Of a DNA stretch of 33,721 nucleotides, positions 26,554-32,539 are shown piece by piece. The position numbers and the translations under genes are program-made. The notes beneath the pieces are model-generated. The model did not search any database and was not told the DNA's origin. It was given only the letters and a program-made list of their open reading frames with translations. Position 1 is the first letter of the stretch, and the number at the start of each line of letters is the position of its first letter. Origin of the DNA: Acetobacter sp. (GTDB lineage Bacteria > Pseudomonadota > Alphaproteobacteria > Acetobacterales > Acetobacteraceae); NCBI GenBank assembly GCA_012517935.1, contig JAAYUA010000174.1, forward strand, positions 1 through 33,721. The letters are read 5' to 3'.

Positions 26554-26994
26554 TTAAATCTGCGTTTCGATTGAAGCTGAGAGAACGATTGCAGCGACAA
26601 TGACAGCAGGCACTGTCAAAAGCGTTGCAATACATAATGGCCGCATCAACAAAGGCAGCCACAGATAACGCAGCGCTTTCCCCGGAGAAAGCGCCAATGT
26701 GCGAATGGTTATTCCTGTTTCCGCCGGCATTTCCAGCAAGAATCCCAGAAAAGGGCAACTCGCCAGCGGTATCAGACAGATCCCCTGCAGCACCGCCTCC
26801 ATCCACATTTTCTGTGGGCCATATGGGCTGAAGGGAAGACAAACTGCCAGAACAGTGGCGGGAATCACTAAAATCGTCAGCGGCAGACGAAGGCGTTGAG
26901 CCGGTACACGTAGCAATGTGACAACACATCCGCACACGACCACCAGCAGGATCAGAAAAAACGGGAATCCGATAGCAGGCGAGAGGCTTTTCAC
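26554..26994 (-). CDS. Short ABC permease-like membrane protein (146 residues)
   Basis: Four membrane helices are visible (near residues 8-28, 35-53, 65-87 and 112-140), against six and about 270 residues for a normal PotB/PotC-type permease. Before the last helix a stretch, PAETGITIRTLALSPGKALRYLWLPLL (here in part ETGITIRTLALSPGKA), resembles the EAA loop that binds the ATPase, though its Gly and Glu/Ala pattern is weak. The GTG at 26994 overlaps the stop of the upstream binding-protein gene as GTGA, so I prefer it to a GTG at 27009. It is the third gene of the ABC-like operon. The frame is open and healthy, so it is likely expressed. Whether it transports anything is unknown. Confidence 0.6.
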   Translation of the reverse strand: MKSLSPAIGFPFFLILLVVVCGCVVTLLRVPAQRLRLPLTILVIPATVLAVCLPFSPYGPQKMWMEAVLQGICLIPLASCPFLGFLLEMPAETGITIRTLALSPGKALRYLWLPLLMRPLCIATLLTVPAVIVAAIVLSASIETQI

Positions 26995-28097
26995 GGTCGC
27001 GCCAGCCACTGGTTAAAGCGTGCGGAAATGTCCGTCAGATGCTTTGCCCAGAAATCATCGTTGACGTTCAGAACGCGCGCTCTCTCGTCAGACACCTGAT
27101 ATTTCTGCATGAAAGTCTGGGTCTGTGGGGCGGTTTTCAACCAGGACATCAGCGCCTGTGCCTTGATCGGCGATGCCGCGCTCATGGGCACAGCCCATTC
27201 CCATTTCGTCCGAAGATGCAATGCCGGGGAAAGAGCAAAGCGTCCGGGGTTCGCCCCTCCTGAGGAAAGAGAAACGATTTCCGGTGCAGGAGCGGATGTC
27301 ATCAGTGCCGCACCGGATTTCATGACCGCGGCAGCTTCTGTTCCCGTGTTCCACCACACAATATAGGGCCTGATTTGATTAAGACGCCTGAAAGCGCGAT
27401 CCAGCCCCTCCGGAGTGCCCAGAACATTGTAAATGTCTTCCGGCGGCACTCCATCGGACAAAAGTGCGATTTCCAGCGTCGTGCGCGGATCACGCCGCAA
27501 TCCCCGCTTGCCGGGATGCCGGGCAACATCCCAGAACCCGGCCCAGCCGGGTTCACTTTCCAGTCGCGAACTGTCCCATGTCAGAACAATATCCACTGAC
27601 ATCGCAGGCAAACCACAAACCGGCTGTGTGCCCGGCGTTGTGCTGCTCATATCAATCTGCAGCAAACCCTGTGCGCATGCGAAACGGACAAGCCCGCCTT
27701 CCGCCATCAGCAGTGACCATCTGCGGAAATCCACATGCTTCTTCGGATTTGCGATTTCCTCGAACTGTCGATGAAATGCAGCCAGCGTGCCATCCCATTT
27801 ATCGACAGACACAACAACGGCTTCCTGATGGCGATAGGGCTCCCAAAGCGCCGTTTTTTCTTCCTGTGCGATAACACCGCCAGGTGTTGCGACCGTCAGA
27901 TAAGATGGATGATGCTGTCGTACATAAGCGGTAGAGGCTTCTGCTTTCAGCGACACAGCCGCCAGCAACAGGGAAACTCCTGCCAGAATCATCTGCCGAC
28001 GATGCTCCTTCCGCTTCCGGCACACCATCCCGGCAACAGGCGCAAAAAGATGGACGCCCGCCCTCGGGCGACGACTTTTCACAGGCAAGGAACACAT
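26991..28097 (-). CDS. PotD-like polyamine-type periplasmic binding protein
   Basis: About 368 residues. A basic N-terminus and hydrophobic stretch (RRQMILAGVSLLLAAVSLKAEA) look like a signal, Tat or Sec, with a twin Arg. The mature part has WDGTLAAF, GFWDVARHPGKRGLRRDPRTT, then VLGTPEGLDRAFRRLNQIRP and YIVWWNTGTEAA, which is the pattern of spermidine/putrescine-binding proteins (FWDV..FPGKRGLR, IWWxxG). The family role is to bind polyamines and deliver them to the permease. The start is uncertain: TTG at 28103 has GGAGAGG upstream, ATG at 28097 follows; one later Met at 28028 begins right at the signal. It lies between the ATPase-like gene and the short permease gene, in one operon. Confidence 0.78.
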   Translation of the reverse strand: MCSLPVKSRRPRAGVHLFAPVAGMVCRKRKEHRRQMILAGVSLLLAAVSLKAEASTAYVRQHHPSYLTVATPGGVIAQEEKTALWEPYRHQEAVVVSVDKWDGTLAAFHRQFEEIANPKKHVDFRRWSLLMAEGGLVRFACAQGLLQIDMSSTTPGTQPVCGLPAMSVDIVLTWDSSRLESEPGWAGFWDVARHPGKRGLRRDPRTTLEIALLSDGVPPEDIYNVLGTPEGLDRAFRRLNQIRPYIVWWNTGTEAAAVMKSGAALMTSAPAPEIVSLSSGGANPGRFALSPALHLRTKWEWAVPMSAASPIKAQALMSWLKTAPQTQTFMQKYQVSDERARVLNVNDDFWAKHLTDISARFNQWLARP

Positions 28098-28139
28098 TGG
28101 CAAAAAAGACGCCTCTCCATTTACTCTATCACAACCTGT

Positions 28140-29252
28140 TTAACCTTTATCCGCCGCAGACGGAAAGGCTACAGCCGCATTCTCCTGCCAAACCAGACAG
28201 GCTTCACTGCCCGGACGCATATTTCGCGACCCCAGAACCGATGGACGATGCACAATCACTTCCCCGCCATCCGGCAGGCGGAACACCAGACGAAAGACAT
28301 CTGCCATCTGAACGACTGACGCCAGAGTCCCAATGAGAGTCGCAGTCTCGTCATCTGGCTTCGCACCGAAAACAGGTGTGATCCGTCCCGGCCTGACGCA
28401 AACATCCACCAGCATGCCCGGCGTCAGGACGCCTCCAGATGTGGCGCAGACCACAACACCCGCCGCAAGCCGAACGCGCACGATATCGTTTTCTTCGTCA
28501 ATCACGATACCACGCAACAGAACCGCGTCGCCAAATCCCACCGCAACACATGCATCCGCCGGACGATCAAACAATTCATCAGGCCGTCCTGTCTGCAACA
28601 ACACACCATCAGCGATCACACCGATGCGGTCTGCCATAAGAAGTGCCTCGTCCCGCTCTCCCGTCAGCAGCACAAGACTGAAACCCCAGGACGACTTCAG
28701 ACGGCGAATCCGTGCGACCAATTGTGAACGCTCTGCATGGTCAAGCCCGCGAAAGGGATAATCCAGAACAACCGTTGAAGCACCCGTCACCAGCCCCCGC
28801 GCAAGAGCGACTCGTATGCGTCCTTCCTGCCCCAGTTGCATCGGCTTCAGATCAGCTTCCGCCTCAAGTCCCGTCAAAGCAAGCACGCGTGCGACGCGCG
28901 CCGAAATTTCCGCGCCTGGCAATCCCTCCCGAAGTGGCAGGGCGATGTTCTCCCGGACAGTCAGATGTGGGAACAGGGCCAGTCTTGATGTGACAAGCCC
29001 ATATCCTTCCGGGCCTGTTCCCGCGCGCATGAAGGCATCCATGATCTGTTCCGGCAATGGTGGCTGCGGACCATCGTCCCGACCTGCAATGGCCTTTCCA
29101 CCAACGACCGCTGCCATTTCACCCAGATCGAGAAAGGCGATCGTCTCTCCTGCCCGCAATTTCAGGGCAGAGATATCCGGCGATGAAGAAAACACCCGAT
29201 CAGAAGAAAAAAGAAGCCGGGCTTCCGCAGGGGGGACAGAAAATTGATGCAT
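28140..29252 (-). CDS. Degenerate ABC ATPase (PotA-like fold, catalytic motifs lost)
   Basis: A 370-residue protein with the shape of a PotA/UgpC-type ATPase: nucleotide-binding domain about 25-235 and TOBE-like C-terminal domain about 240-365. LALFPHLTVRENIALPL, ADRIGVIADGVLLQTGRPDELFDRPA match the family. Yet the catalytic parts are altered: the P-loop region GETIAFLDLGEMAAVVGGKA lacks GxxGxGKS/T; the Q-loop Gln is Ser (VTSR); the signature LSGGQ reads LGQEG; Walker B is VVLDYPF, with Tyr in place of the catalytic Glu; the switch His is missing (LTGERDEA). The frame has no stops. The start at 29252 has no clear SD. A pseudo-ATPase is my inference; it heads a three-gene operon. Confidence 0.8.
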   Translation of the reverse strand: MHQFSVPPAEARLLFSSDRVFSSSPDISALKLRAGETIAFLDLGEMAAVVGGKAIAGRDDGPQPPLPEQIMDAFMRAGTGPEGYGLVTSRLALFPHLTVRENIALPLREGLPGAEISARVARVLALTGLEAEADLKPMQLGQEGRIRVALARGLVTGASTVVLDYPFRGLDHAERSQLVARIRRLKSSWGFSLVLLTGERDEALLMADRIGVIADGVLLQTGRPDELFDRPADACVAVGFGDAVLLRGIVIDEENDIVRVRLAAGVVVCATSGGVLTPGMLVDVCVRPGRITPVFGAKPDDETATLIGTLASVVQMADVFRLVFRLPDGGEVIVHRPSVLGSRNMRPGSEACLVWQENAAVAFPSAADKG

Positions 29253-29345
29253 GACACTATGGAACCACAAACATGCTACAGAGTTTGAAGAGATCTGCCG
29301 GAACGATATCCGGAAGCCCCTCATATGGAAACGGAGTGATTCCAA

Positions 29346-29636
29346 ATGTCTGCCGAAAAAATCAGCGAGAATTTTCTGGAAAGCCTCACCGAAACCACGA
29401 CATCCATCCGCAAGGAACTGGATGTCATCAAGGAACAGCTCGAAAAATTCGTGTCACAGAGTGTCATCCCTGAGCTTGATCACGCGACATCAAAAGCAAC
29501 CGATGCTGTTGCCTCCGCTCGTGAACTGGCAGACAATCAGGCAAGAAACGTCTCGACAAGAATCATAAGCCAGCCATTGATGTCGATCGCGGTCTCCGCT
29601 GTTATCGGATTTATCGCTGGCCGTCTGTCCCGCTAA
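29346..29636 (+). CDS. YqjD/ElaB-like (DUF883) small membrane protein
   Basis: A 96-residue protein with a coiled-coil-like N-terminal part (about 10-70) and one C-terminal membrane helix, SQPLMSIAVSAVIGFIAGRLSR (about 76-93). This tail is characteristic of the YqjD/ElaB/YgaM family, where the soluble part binds ribosomes and the helix anchors it in the inner membrane. This function is known for E. coli; here it is inferred. It is divergent from the ABC-like operon and is followed 37 bases later by a YqjE-like gene. GGAG lies about ten bases before the ATG. Confidence 0.8.
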   Translation: MSAEKISENFLESLTETTTSIRKELDVIKEQLEKFVSQSVIPELDHATSKATDAVASARELADNQARNVSTRIISQPLMSIAVSAVIGFIAGRLSR

Positions 29637-29673: not shown

Positions 29674-30087
29674 ATGCGTATTTTTGAAGCCGGACAGTCC
29701 ACACTCGACTCTCAGATCGAAGTCATCAAATTCAGCAGCCTGAGGGTCGGAAAACAGGTTGCCCTGCTGATCATCGCCGCAGTTTTCGGGTTCTTCGCCC
29801 TGATCTCCGGCCATGCACTGCTATGGGCCATCTTCCTGTTCGAATTCCATTTCGGACCCGTATGCTCGCCGGCAGCTGTCTTCGGGTGCGACGTCCTCGC
29901 CGCGCTCATCTTCGTCCTGTTCGGACGCCGTTCCTATGTGACCCCAGCTGAAATGAGAGCCCGCGTCCAGCTTGACCGGCACCTTTCCGATCTGCGCCAG
30001 ACCATAACGCTCAGCACCATTCTGGCCACGTTTGCTGGCCCTATCGGTCGTTATGTTGGCAGTCAGTTTTTCTCAAGAAAACGCTGA
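29674..30087 (+). CDS. YqjE-like (phage holin superfamily) membrane protein
   Basis: A 137-residue protein with two membrane helices (about 27-55 and 65-84) and a basic C-terminal tail. The size, helix layout and position right after a YqjD-like gene match the yqjD-yqjE pair of enterobacteria, where YqjE is annotated as an integral membrane protein. No enzymatic motif is visible. AAAGGT lies before the ATG. A hairpin (30108-30138) follows at 20 bases. Confidence 0.65.
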   Translation: MRIFEAGQSTLDSQIEVIKFSSLRVGKQVALLIIAAVFGFFALISGHALLWAIFLFEFHFGPVCSPAAVFGCDVLAALIFVLFGRRSYVTPAEMRARVQLDRHLSDLRQTITLSTILATFAGPIGRYVGSQFFSRKR

Positions 30088-31639: not shown

Positions 31640-32539
31640 TCAGCGCTTCAGCACACGCCCGGCAACAGTATCCAGACGCTTCAGAAGCTCTGGATCACGT
31701 GCTTCCGGAGCCGTGATCAACGCATATTCAAGTGCACGGTCACAGCCAGCCGGACACAAACCGCGGGCCTTGCCCATGTCCGGGATCATCGCCTGCACCA
31801 ATGCACGCGCACGCTCACCATTTTCCTTCATGATCTTCACGACGGCATCAACCGTCACGCTGTCATGGTCGGGATGCCAGCAGTCATAATCCGTCACCAT
31901 GGCAACGGTCGCGTAACAGATCTCCGCCTCACGGGCGAGCTTAGCCTCCGGCATGTTGGTCATGCCAATGACCGAACATCCCCATGAGCGGTAAAGTTCG
32001 CTCTCGGCCTTGGTGGAGAACTGCGGCCCTTCCATCACCAGATATGTGCCGCCACGCGTAAACGGAATGTTCAGCGCCGCCATCTGTGTTGCCGCAACAT
32101 CCCCGATCCGTGGACAAACAGGATCGGCAAGGGAAACATGCGCGACGCATCCCGTGTCGAAAAAGCTCTTCTCACGCGCAAAGCTGCGATCAATGAACTG
32201 ATCAACGATCACAAAATGCCCCGGCGGCAGCTCTTCCTTCAAAGAACCGACAGCAGACAGGGAAATAATGTCCGTCACACCCGACATCTTCAGCGCCGCA
32301 ATATTCGCGCGATAGTTCAGACGCGACGGCGGAATCGGATGACCACGGCCATGACGCGGCAGGAAAACGCAGCGCACACCGTTCAAACGCCCGGTCAGAA
32401 GACTGTCCGAAGGCTTACCCCAGGGTGTTTCAACGTCCTGCCAGACCTTATCTTCAAGGCCTTCGATATCATACAGACCGGATCCGCCAATGATGCCAAT
32501 CACGGGCTCGATCACGGTGTTATCTGTTTCGGTGTGCAT
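31640..32539 (-). CDS. mtnP: S-methyl-5'-thioadenosine phosphorylase
   Basis: A 299-residue PNP-type phosphorylase: IGIIGGSGLYDIEGL at the start, FLPRHGRGHPIPPSRLNYRANI (phosphate and ribose site), EGPQFSTKAES and IGMTNMPEAKLAREAEICYA. It splits methylthioadenosine, made by SpeE, into adenine and methylthioribose-1-phosphate. Its 5' end overlaps the 3' end of the cytochrome c1 gene by 20 bases, so it is the last gene of the cytochrome bc1 operon. Convergent with the NUP-like gene. Confidence 0.95.
   Translation of the reverse strand: MHTETDNTVIEPVIGIIGGSGLYDIEGLEDKVWQDVETPWGKPSDSLLTGRLNGVRCVFLPRHGRGHPIPPSRLNYRANIAALKMSGVTDIISLSAVGSLKEELPPGHFVIVDQFIDRSFAREKSFFDTGCVAHVSLADPVCPRIGDVAATQMAALNIPFTRGGTYLVMEGPQFSTKAESELYRSWGCSVIGMTNMPEAKLAREAEICYATVAMVTDYDCWHPDHDSVTVDAVVKIMKENGERARALVQAMIPDMGKARGLCPAGCDRALEYALITAPEARDPELLKRLDTVAGRVLKR

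Follow-up and report, generated by a model that had tools for sequence, protein, structure and literature searches.

The window analysed here, i.e. the whole stretch of 33,721 nucleotides from Acetobacter sp. (contig JAAYUA010000174.1 of assembly GCA_012517935.1), carries on its minus strand a three-gene operon in which each gene is homologous to a subunit of an ABC importer: first a PotA-like ATPase subunit, then a substrate-binding protein (SBP), and finally a short membrane protein. The ATP-contacting motifs, the best-kept ligand contacts and much of the permease have been lost from this trio, yet its genes are under purifying selection and the trio is kept across 16 genera. All three frames are open. 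The first gene (28140..29252) encodes the P-loop-less PotA-like subunit of 370 aa, and the second (26991..28103) an SBP-like protein with a signal-peptide pattern and a match to the Pfam family SBP_bac_8 over residues 162-335, the true start of which is probably the Met at 28028 or 27992. The third (26554..27009) encodes a four-helix remnant of a PotC-type permease, for which there are two possible GTG starts: the upstream one gives 151 aa, and the one at 26994, which overlaps the stop of the SBP gene by 4 bases (GTGA), gives 146 aa.

The losses in the ATPase-like protein become apparent upon alignment to L165, a homologue that keeps all motifs and occupies the equivalent position in the gene order (names of ABC motifs and of the EAA loop are used in their textbook sense). 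Where L165 has GPSGSGKTT, FQSYALFPH, LSGGQ, IVLLDEPLGALD and VTHD, the window protein has GE-------, TSRLALFPH, LGQEG, TVVLDYPFRGLD and LTGE, respectively, which means that the P-loop is deleted, the Q-loop Gln is replaced by Ser, LSGGQ by LGQEG and the Walker B Glu by Tyr, and that the switch His is absent, while the Walker B Asp and the D-loop Asp are still present. On the DNA (minus strand, coordinates counted by hand), the place of the missing P-loop, LDLGEMAAVV against GPSGSGKTT, lies at 29103..29132, LGQEG at 28821..28835, and VVLDYP, the Walker B motif with Tyr for the catalytic Glu, at 28755..28772. In line with this alignment, Pfam ABC_tran scores 20.8 bits, under its cut-off of 25, while the C-terminal TOBE_2 domain (residues 284-363; 28164..28403, minus strand) is retained and passes with 29.4 against a cut-off of 21. 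NCBIfam potA matches residues 87-360 with an E-value of 1.8e-41, although at 142.3 bits it stays far below its cut-off of 355.6. A single-sequence AlphaFold2 model of the protein reached a pLDDT of only 34.9 and was not used. The preliminary description of this operon had listed the same motif losses and the retained D-loop, as well as the three open frames, the 4-base overlap and a permease of about 146 residues with four helices, and all of these were borne out.

To place the operon among its relatives, the whole genus (49 genomes) and two samples of the family (150 and 249 genomes, 193 of the latter with an SBP match at 1e-20) were searched, and 151 loci including the window were analysed, L238 having been dropped as a locus without SBP. 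The loci comprise 100 of the places listed for the 249-genome sample, namely those ranking highest in the SBP search, as well as matches from the genus and from the 150-genome sample, and the counts of states below are not family frequencies. Frames were read from stop to stop in GC-rich DNA, in which permeases can be missed, and an assignment to the class without permease can be false at contig ends or in odd frames (L184 lies at a contig end, and the SBP frame of L172 is 851 aa long). Genus loci, loci with ykgJ nearby and L202 are together referred to as clade loci (76 in total).

Within the genus, 48 loci were found in 47 of the 49 genomes, window included (G189 has two), and the ATPase is degenerate in all 48; the remaining two genomes, G186 and G190, gave weaker matches only, which are not among the analysed loci. 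The same trio occurs at 21 more loci from 15 other genera, which brings the total to 16 genera. An ATPase stands beside the SBP in 69 of the 76 clade loci, in each case degenerate and accompanied by the short permease piece, whereas in the other 7, which fall in two parts of the SBP tree, both are absent from the locus; the ATPase and the permease piece are thus present together or absent together. None of these 69 ATPases has the P-loop Lys, LSGGQ or the Walker B Glu (the frame in L236 does not cover the P-loop), while the Q-loop Gln is in place in two (L094 and L212) and the switch His in four (L212, L216, L226 and L227).

Outside the clade, the state of the locus is far more varied. Among the 75 non-clade loci, the ATPase motifs are intact and both permeases present in 20, and the motifs are intact with no permease recognised in 10; 6 have a partly eroded ATPase, and 5 are classed as having lost the motifs (one of which, L147, keeps the P-loop Lys and the Walker B Glu); no ATPase was found near the SBP in the remaining 34, 9 of which do have permeases. 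In the SBP tree (118 rows; SH-aLRT support only, midpoint root and some long rows, i.e. L197, L202 and L204), 36 trio loci and the 7 loci with the SBP alone lie on one side of a branch with an SH-aLRT of 99, and all other rows, with mixed states, lie on the opposite side. Therefore, the trio of the clade most likely stems from one ancestor, with similar erosion elsewhere in the family. In the non-clade loci L123 and L146 (genomes G062 and G137), the P-loop is lost and the Walker B Glu position is kept (LLLxEEP, with Glu for Asp); their ATPases apparently represent a separate line of erosion.

Beyond the family, the best SBP in 385 genomes of the class scored 277 bits, versus 435 for the window. 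Of the 8 best SBP loci there, 5 have an ATPase near enough to be examined, in each case with both the P-loop and LSGGQ. A scan of genome contigs with patterns of the window protein alone yielded 32 distant ABC loci and no near kin, a protein search gave SBP relatives below 60% identity, and a search of plasmid DNA returned gcvP matches, or unannotated stretches over the same part of the query, among the matches listed (the best 5 of 126). Judging by gene content, the clade very probably corresponds to the acetic acid bacteria of the Acetobacteraceae, a label to which the window's genome adds a little weight with one membrane PQQ dehydrogenase that scores above cut-off.

The third gene of the trio encodes a truncated permease. 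Its family profile matches residues 57-193 of E. coli PotC (E 1.9e-7), and the piece therefore represents the central part of a permease, with an EAA-like loop but without either end. It is 140-174 aa long in the first 20 relatives, and a simple window count gives four hydrophobic stretches in the window copy. The EAA-like loop (TAQELGA...WLPLL), the counterpart of the coupling helix of ABC permeases, is recognisable in most of 21 aligned pieces and is located at 26647..26724 of the window (minus strand, counted by hand), where its Gly has been lost. No match to PotB or PotC was obtained in the clade loci at the threshold used, i.e. the two full transmembrane subunits or domains of an importer were not found there.

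As for the SBP, its profile is nearest to SBPs of the gamma-aminobutyric acid (GABA) and opine type. The closest solved structures are 9d57, 4i1d, 3rpw, 6dgv and 4eq7, and the E-values against Pf622 (6dgv, 9d57), Atu4243 (4eq7, 4euo) and MotA (5l9g) range from 2e-36 to 4e-31. With these relatives it shares a well-conserved C-lobe, many residues of which are invariant in the 69 trio loci. It departs from Pf622, however, in the pocket. Arg205 and Asp228 are among the GABA-contacting residues named in the available text on Pf622 (PMC12999171). At the first position, Arg is found in 30 of the 30 loci with both permeases and in only 2 of the 69 trio loci (67 replaced), 61 of which have Glu or Asp, mostly Glu, as does the window (Glu275, 27279..27281, minus strand). 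At the second, the loci with both permeases have Asp in 29 cases and Glu in one, whereas Asp is replaced in all 69 trio loci, by Tyr in 47. At 12 positions in total (e.g. Trp176, Asp205, Arg207, Leu267, Pro272 and Glu275) the clade consensus differs from that of the permease-bearing loci, including position 254, which is Gly in the window and Pro in the clade. The pocket has been altered rather than just eroded. The other Pf622 contacts vary even among the intact importers of the family, which also differ from Pf622 there.

Over all loci, absence of permeases is associated with a lost pocket (Fisher p 9e-22), although this test ignores shared ancestry, and a tree-aware test comprised only 4 independent pairs and had no power. 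Moreover, Arg205 is kept in 11 of the 45 non-clade loci without recognised permeases, which speaks against a clean link between loss of the permease and loss of the pocket. A signal-peptide-like start is present in all 75 clade loci considered (by a lax pattern, L202 not included). In 41 of these 75 (e.g. L095, L096, L098, L099 and the window), twin Arg residues directly precede the hydrophobic stretch of the SBP, which is possibly exported via the twin-arginine translocation (Tat) pathway.

Selection on the three genes was estimated as the ratio of nonsynonymous to synonymous substitutions (dN/dS) from Nei-Gojobori counts with our own script, using within-genus pairs with a dS of 0.1-1; the same species recur among these pairs, which are not independent, and the dS filter makes the pair sets differ between genes. 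Median dN/dS came to 0.134 in 76 pairs for the ATPase, 0.088 in 41 pairs for the SBP and 0.150 in 34 pairs for the permease piece, all within the range of the neighbouring genes, i.e. 0.175 for the DUF883-like gene, 0.068 for the holin-like gene, 0.077 for ykgJ and 0.112 for ygjP. In the 22 closest pairs the ATPase values lie between 0.05 and 0.26, with a similar range for the SBP and the permease piece. Within the ATPase of the clade, the median pairwise identity of the nucleotide-binding domain (NBD) versus the TOBE part is 0.382 versus 0.446 (69 loci), compared to 0.723 versus 0.388 in the intact importers (20 loci), which corresponds to TOBE/NBD ratios of 1.20 and 0.53, respectively. In other words, the TOBE part is held as before, while the nucleotide-binding part has lost constraint.

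These results bear on both readings that the preliminary description had offered, namely a recently decaying polyamine importer and a repurposed sensor or scaffold complex kept under selection. The first does not hold. A normal P-loop occurs in none of the 48 genus loci (with the L236 frame again falling short of it), and within the genus each of the three genes has a dN/dS far below 1; sequencing error and recent decay were accordingly rejected, the losses being common to all genus loci and dN/dS being low. Nor is a polyamine importer supported, since the SBP profile is nearest to GABA and opine SBPs and the two best-kept ligand residues are replaced. The proximity of speD-speE, to which attention had been drawn, looks incidental: no homologues of speE, gcvP or the gene for 5'-methylthioadenosine phosphorylase (MTAP) were found in the loci of 20 relatives, within about 7 kb on each side (speD was not queried), and the polyamine link was rejected as unsupported. 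Of the second reading, the selection and the loss of the transport chemistry stand, while the role as sensor or scaffold would be an interpretation of them. The original observation was right, and is larger than first described.

It seems moderately probable that the trio is a 'pseudo-importer', i.e. an ATP-independent envelope complex (scaffold or sensor) that derives from an importer of the GABA/opine/polyamine class and was fixed in the ancestor of the clade. In that ancestor, a type I ABC importer with an SBP of this class would have ceased transporting, with one permease being lost and the other shrinking to its four-helix core, while the ligand contacts disappeared from the SBP and the ATP-contacting motifs from the ATPase. 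The remainder would have been kept as an envelope complex with a part in each compartment: in the periplasm, the secreted SBP-like domain; in the membrane, the small piece with its EAA-type coupling helix; and in the cytoplasm, the PotA-shaped protein, docked on this piece and still carrying its C-terminal TOBE domain. Because the ATPase and the permease piece occur together or are absent together, they are read as a physical unit, which the EAA-like helix would hold. Presumably, the complex needs no ATP and acts as a scaffold or sensor across the envelope, with output via protein contacts (through the C-lobe of the SBP outside and the TOBE part inside), in a setting common with the neighbouring YqjD/YqjE-like pair. 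More tentatively, an entire importer may have turned into an ATP-independent three-compartment complex (periplasmic SBP, membrane coupling piece and cytoplasmic P-loop-less cassette) that signals or tethers partners across the inner membrane, clade-wide and with intermediates in sister lineages; this is conceivable, but we would not yet call it probable.

Several observations weigh against a repurposed complex, some of which would fit a dead importer that is slowly on its way out, its frames being open since decay is slow and the operon short. In G170, the frame of the degenerate ATPase is split in two (L237, G170:C106:37067-38102), and that of L236 (G176) is without its start. One of the 76 ATPase pairs has a dN/dS above 0.5. 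For the window and its nearest relative, dS is saturated (pN 0.389 and pS 0.733 for the ATPase, 0.372 and 0.736 for the SBP, and 0.563 and 0.686 for the permease piece), and selection on the window copy is therefore only weakly demonstrated, the case resting mostly on its relatives. Permease pieces are poorly conserved, with 20-30% identity to the window copy. A fast-evolving nucleotide-binding part also fits slow erosion, and since the eroded ATPases outside the clade share the shift between the two parts (NBD 0.365 versus TOBE 0.388, ratio 1.09, 11 loci), this shift alone is no proof of a new function. The contacts within the trio, as well as its function, are what we infer from sequence. 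Furthermore, the 7 clade loci without ATPase and permease piece imply that the SBP's job there is independent of both. That the same locus is eroded to varying degrees in the family (the 6 partly eroded and 5 lost ATPases outside the clade, and the SBP alone in others) is likewise what slow decay would produce. Nevertheless, we give slow decay little chance, considering the low dN/dS of all three genes, which lies within the range of their neighbours, the frames that are open in nearly all loci over 16 genera, the new fixed residues of the SBP, and the signal-peptide pattern (a lax test) in 75 of 75 clade loci.

Alternatively, the SBP may be the working part, as an orphan SBP from which some other system of the envelope receives a new ligand or signal, be it another permease, a sensor kinase or an enzyme of c-di-GMP (cyclic di-GMP), with the ATPase and permease piece as auxiliaries. 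The SBP is kept in every analysed locus, although the loci were found through the SBP, and in the 7 clade loci mentioned above it stands beside a holin-like gene without the other two. In addition, the residue at position 205, which is now acidic, and that at 228, mostly Tyr, could form a new pocket. Precedents are found in the available parts of the papers on polyamine sensing by NspS-MbaA (PMC9993111) and on the orphan GABA-binding SBPs of P. aeruginosa (PMC11113362), although the latter also reports that the sensor domain of AgtS was bound by neither PA0602 nor AgtB, both of them SBPs. NspS, which shares the broad Pot class with the SBP of the trio, senses rather than transports, as the latter might, but it works with a c-di-GMP enzyme (both according to the accessible text of PMC9993111), whereas the partners in the trio are a dead ATPase and a permease piece. 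No sensor gene lies beside the trio in the window, nor is there a gene for a c-di-GMP partner among the window neighbours of the SBP. An SBP acting on its own would moreover leave the ATPase and permease piece under selection in 69 of the 76 clade loci unexplained, and we therefore consider it unlikely as the full account, even though an SBP-based sensor may be part of the truth.

A further alternative is that the trio belongs, as an accessory module, to the machinery for Mla phospholipid transport. In 25 of the 151 loci (e.g. L140:4138-5253, with 212.6 bits for Pfam MlaE, and L164:6609-7778), a gene for a STAS-MlaE permease lies on the strand of the SBP gene, downstream of it or of potB-potC. 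L164 has the order eroded ATPase, SBP, short permease and MlaE, with a further ABC ATPase match, taken as MlaF by position only. However, none of these 25 loci is a clade locus, and in the window's genome the three MlaE genes are on other contigs, with no mlaE or mlaF in the operon. Motif-intact importers also precede mlaE (L130, L131, L133, L138 and L144), and the MlaE neighbourhood is therefore older than the decay. For these reasons a role in Mla transport seems very improbable. At 15 of the 25 MlaE-bearing loci, the SBP stands without a recognised importer ATPase and without recognised importer permeases beside it.

Compared to known systems, the trio resembles PotABCD (E. coli PotA and PotC in 8y5f and 8y5g) in having a PotA-like subunit with TOBE_2, a PotC-homologous piece with an EAA-like loop and an SBP of the same broad class in one operon. 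In contrast to PotABCD, it has no intact ATP-contacting motif, one short permease instead of two full ones, and no intact ligand pocket. Individual enzymes that persist as dead copies are well known, as are individual degenerate ABC sites, and in heterodimeric ABC exporters with degenerate nucleotide-binding sites one consensus site remains, whereas the trio operon encodes no intact partner site. To our knowledge, no complete importer has been reported of which the ATPase, permease and SBP are all dead yet under purifying selection and kept across 16 genera. Likewise, among literature titles (titles only, with preprints and most subscription journals outside the scope) none describes a complete dead-but-selected importer. 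The trio and the heterodimeric exporters do have in common that sites without catalytic residues are kept, as far as the available part of PMC7756269 describes the latter.

The family appears to hold the successive steps of such a loss, i.e. an intact importer, an importer without recognised permeases, a partly eroded ATPase, the fully eroded trio and the SBP alone. Such living intermediates make it possible to study the sequence of steps by which a molecular machine stops functioning, and the purpose for which it is retained. There is also a warning for annotation: profile searches put the PotA-like protein among ABC and PotA relatives, and the genomes of this group may therefore be wrongly credited with an importer that does not exist.

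Divergent from the operon, on the plus strand, lie a DUF883/YqjD-like gene (29346..29636) and a gene for a Phage_holin_3_6/YqjE-like membrane protein (29674..30087; Pfam E 0.0002, below cut-off), both assigned by synteny. The name of the former is tentative, as Pfam gave no match on the window copy, DUF883_C scored below cut-off for L091, L102 and L105, and there was none for L165. Gene order is constant: a DUF883-like or holin-like gene stands divergently beside 68 of the 69 trio loci (the exception being L224), and 66 of the 69 have a gene for YkgJ, a CxxCxxCC protein, next in order, in most cases together with one for a YgjP-like peptidase (not in the window, L088 and L209). The pair also adjoins potA-potD-potB-potC operons with all motifs intact (L165 and L149), which would represent the ancestral state of this place, and a third intact importer, L117, has a DUF883-like match only.

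Upstream of the DUF883-like gene, and in its sense, the window contains GGAAC-N16-AGTT (29261-29285). Of 66 loci, 18 have the pattern GGAAC-N16-18-NGTT, which we take to be that of an EcfG-like general-stress promoter, in this position, where about 0.8 would be expected, and none has it towards the ATPase, so that this stress-promoter lead concerns the DUF883-like neighbour only. In P. aeruginosa, the operon PA3040-PA3042 (YqjD/YqjE-like) has been tied to envelope stress and stationary phase, according to the accessible text of PMC11302039. This operon resembles only the divergent DUF883-like and holin-like pair; as described there, it comprises three genes and, unlike the trio locus, has no ABC-derived gene. 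In the window, the trio operon is flanked on its upstream side by the DUF883-like gene, the holin-like gene and a gene of the NUP family, and on the other side by genes read as gcvP, gcvH and gcvT. The NUP-family gene (purine nucleoside permease, PF06516; 30362-31453) adjoins a gene that was read by eye as an MTAP-like phosphorylase (31640-32539), and the two possibly form a nucleoside salvage pair.

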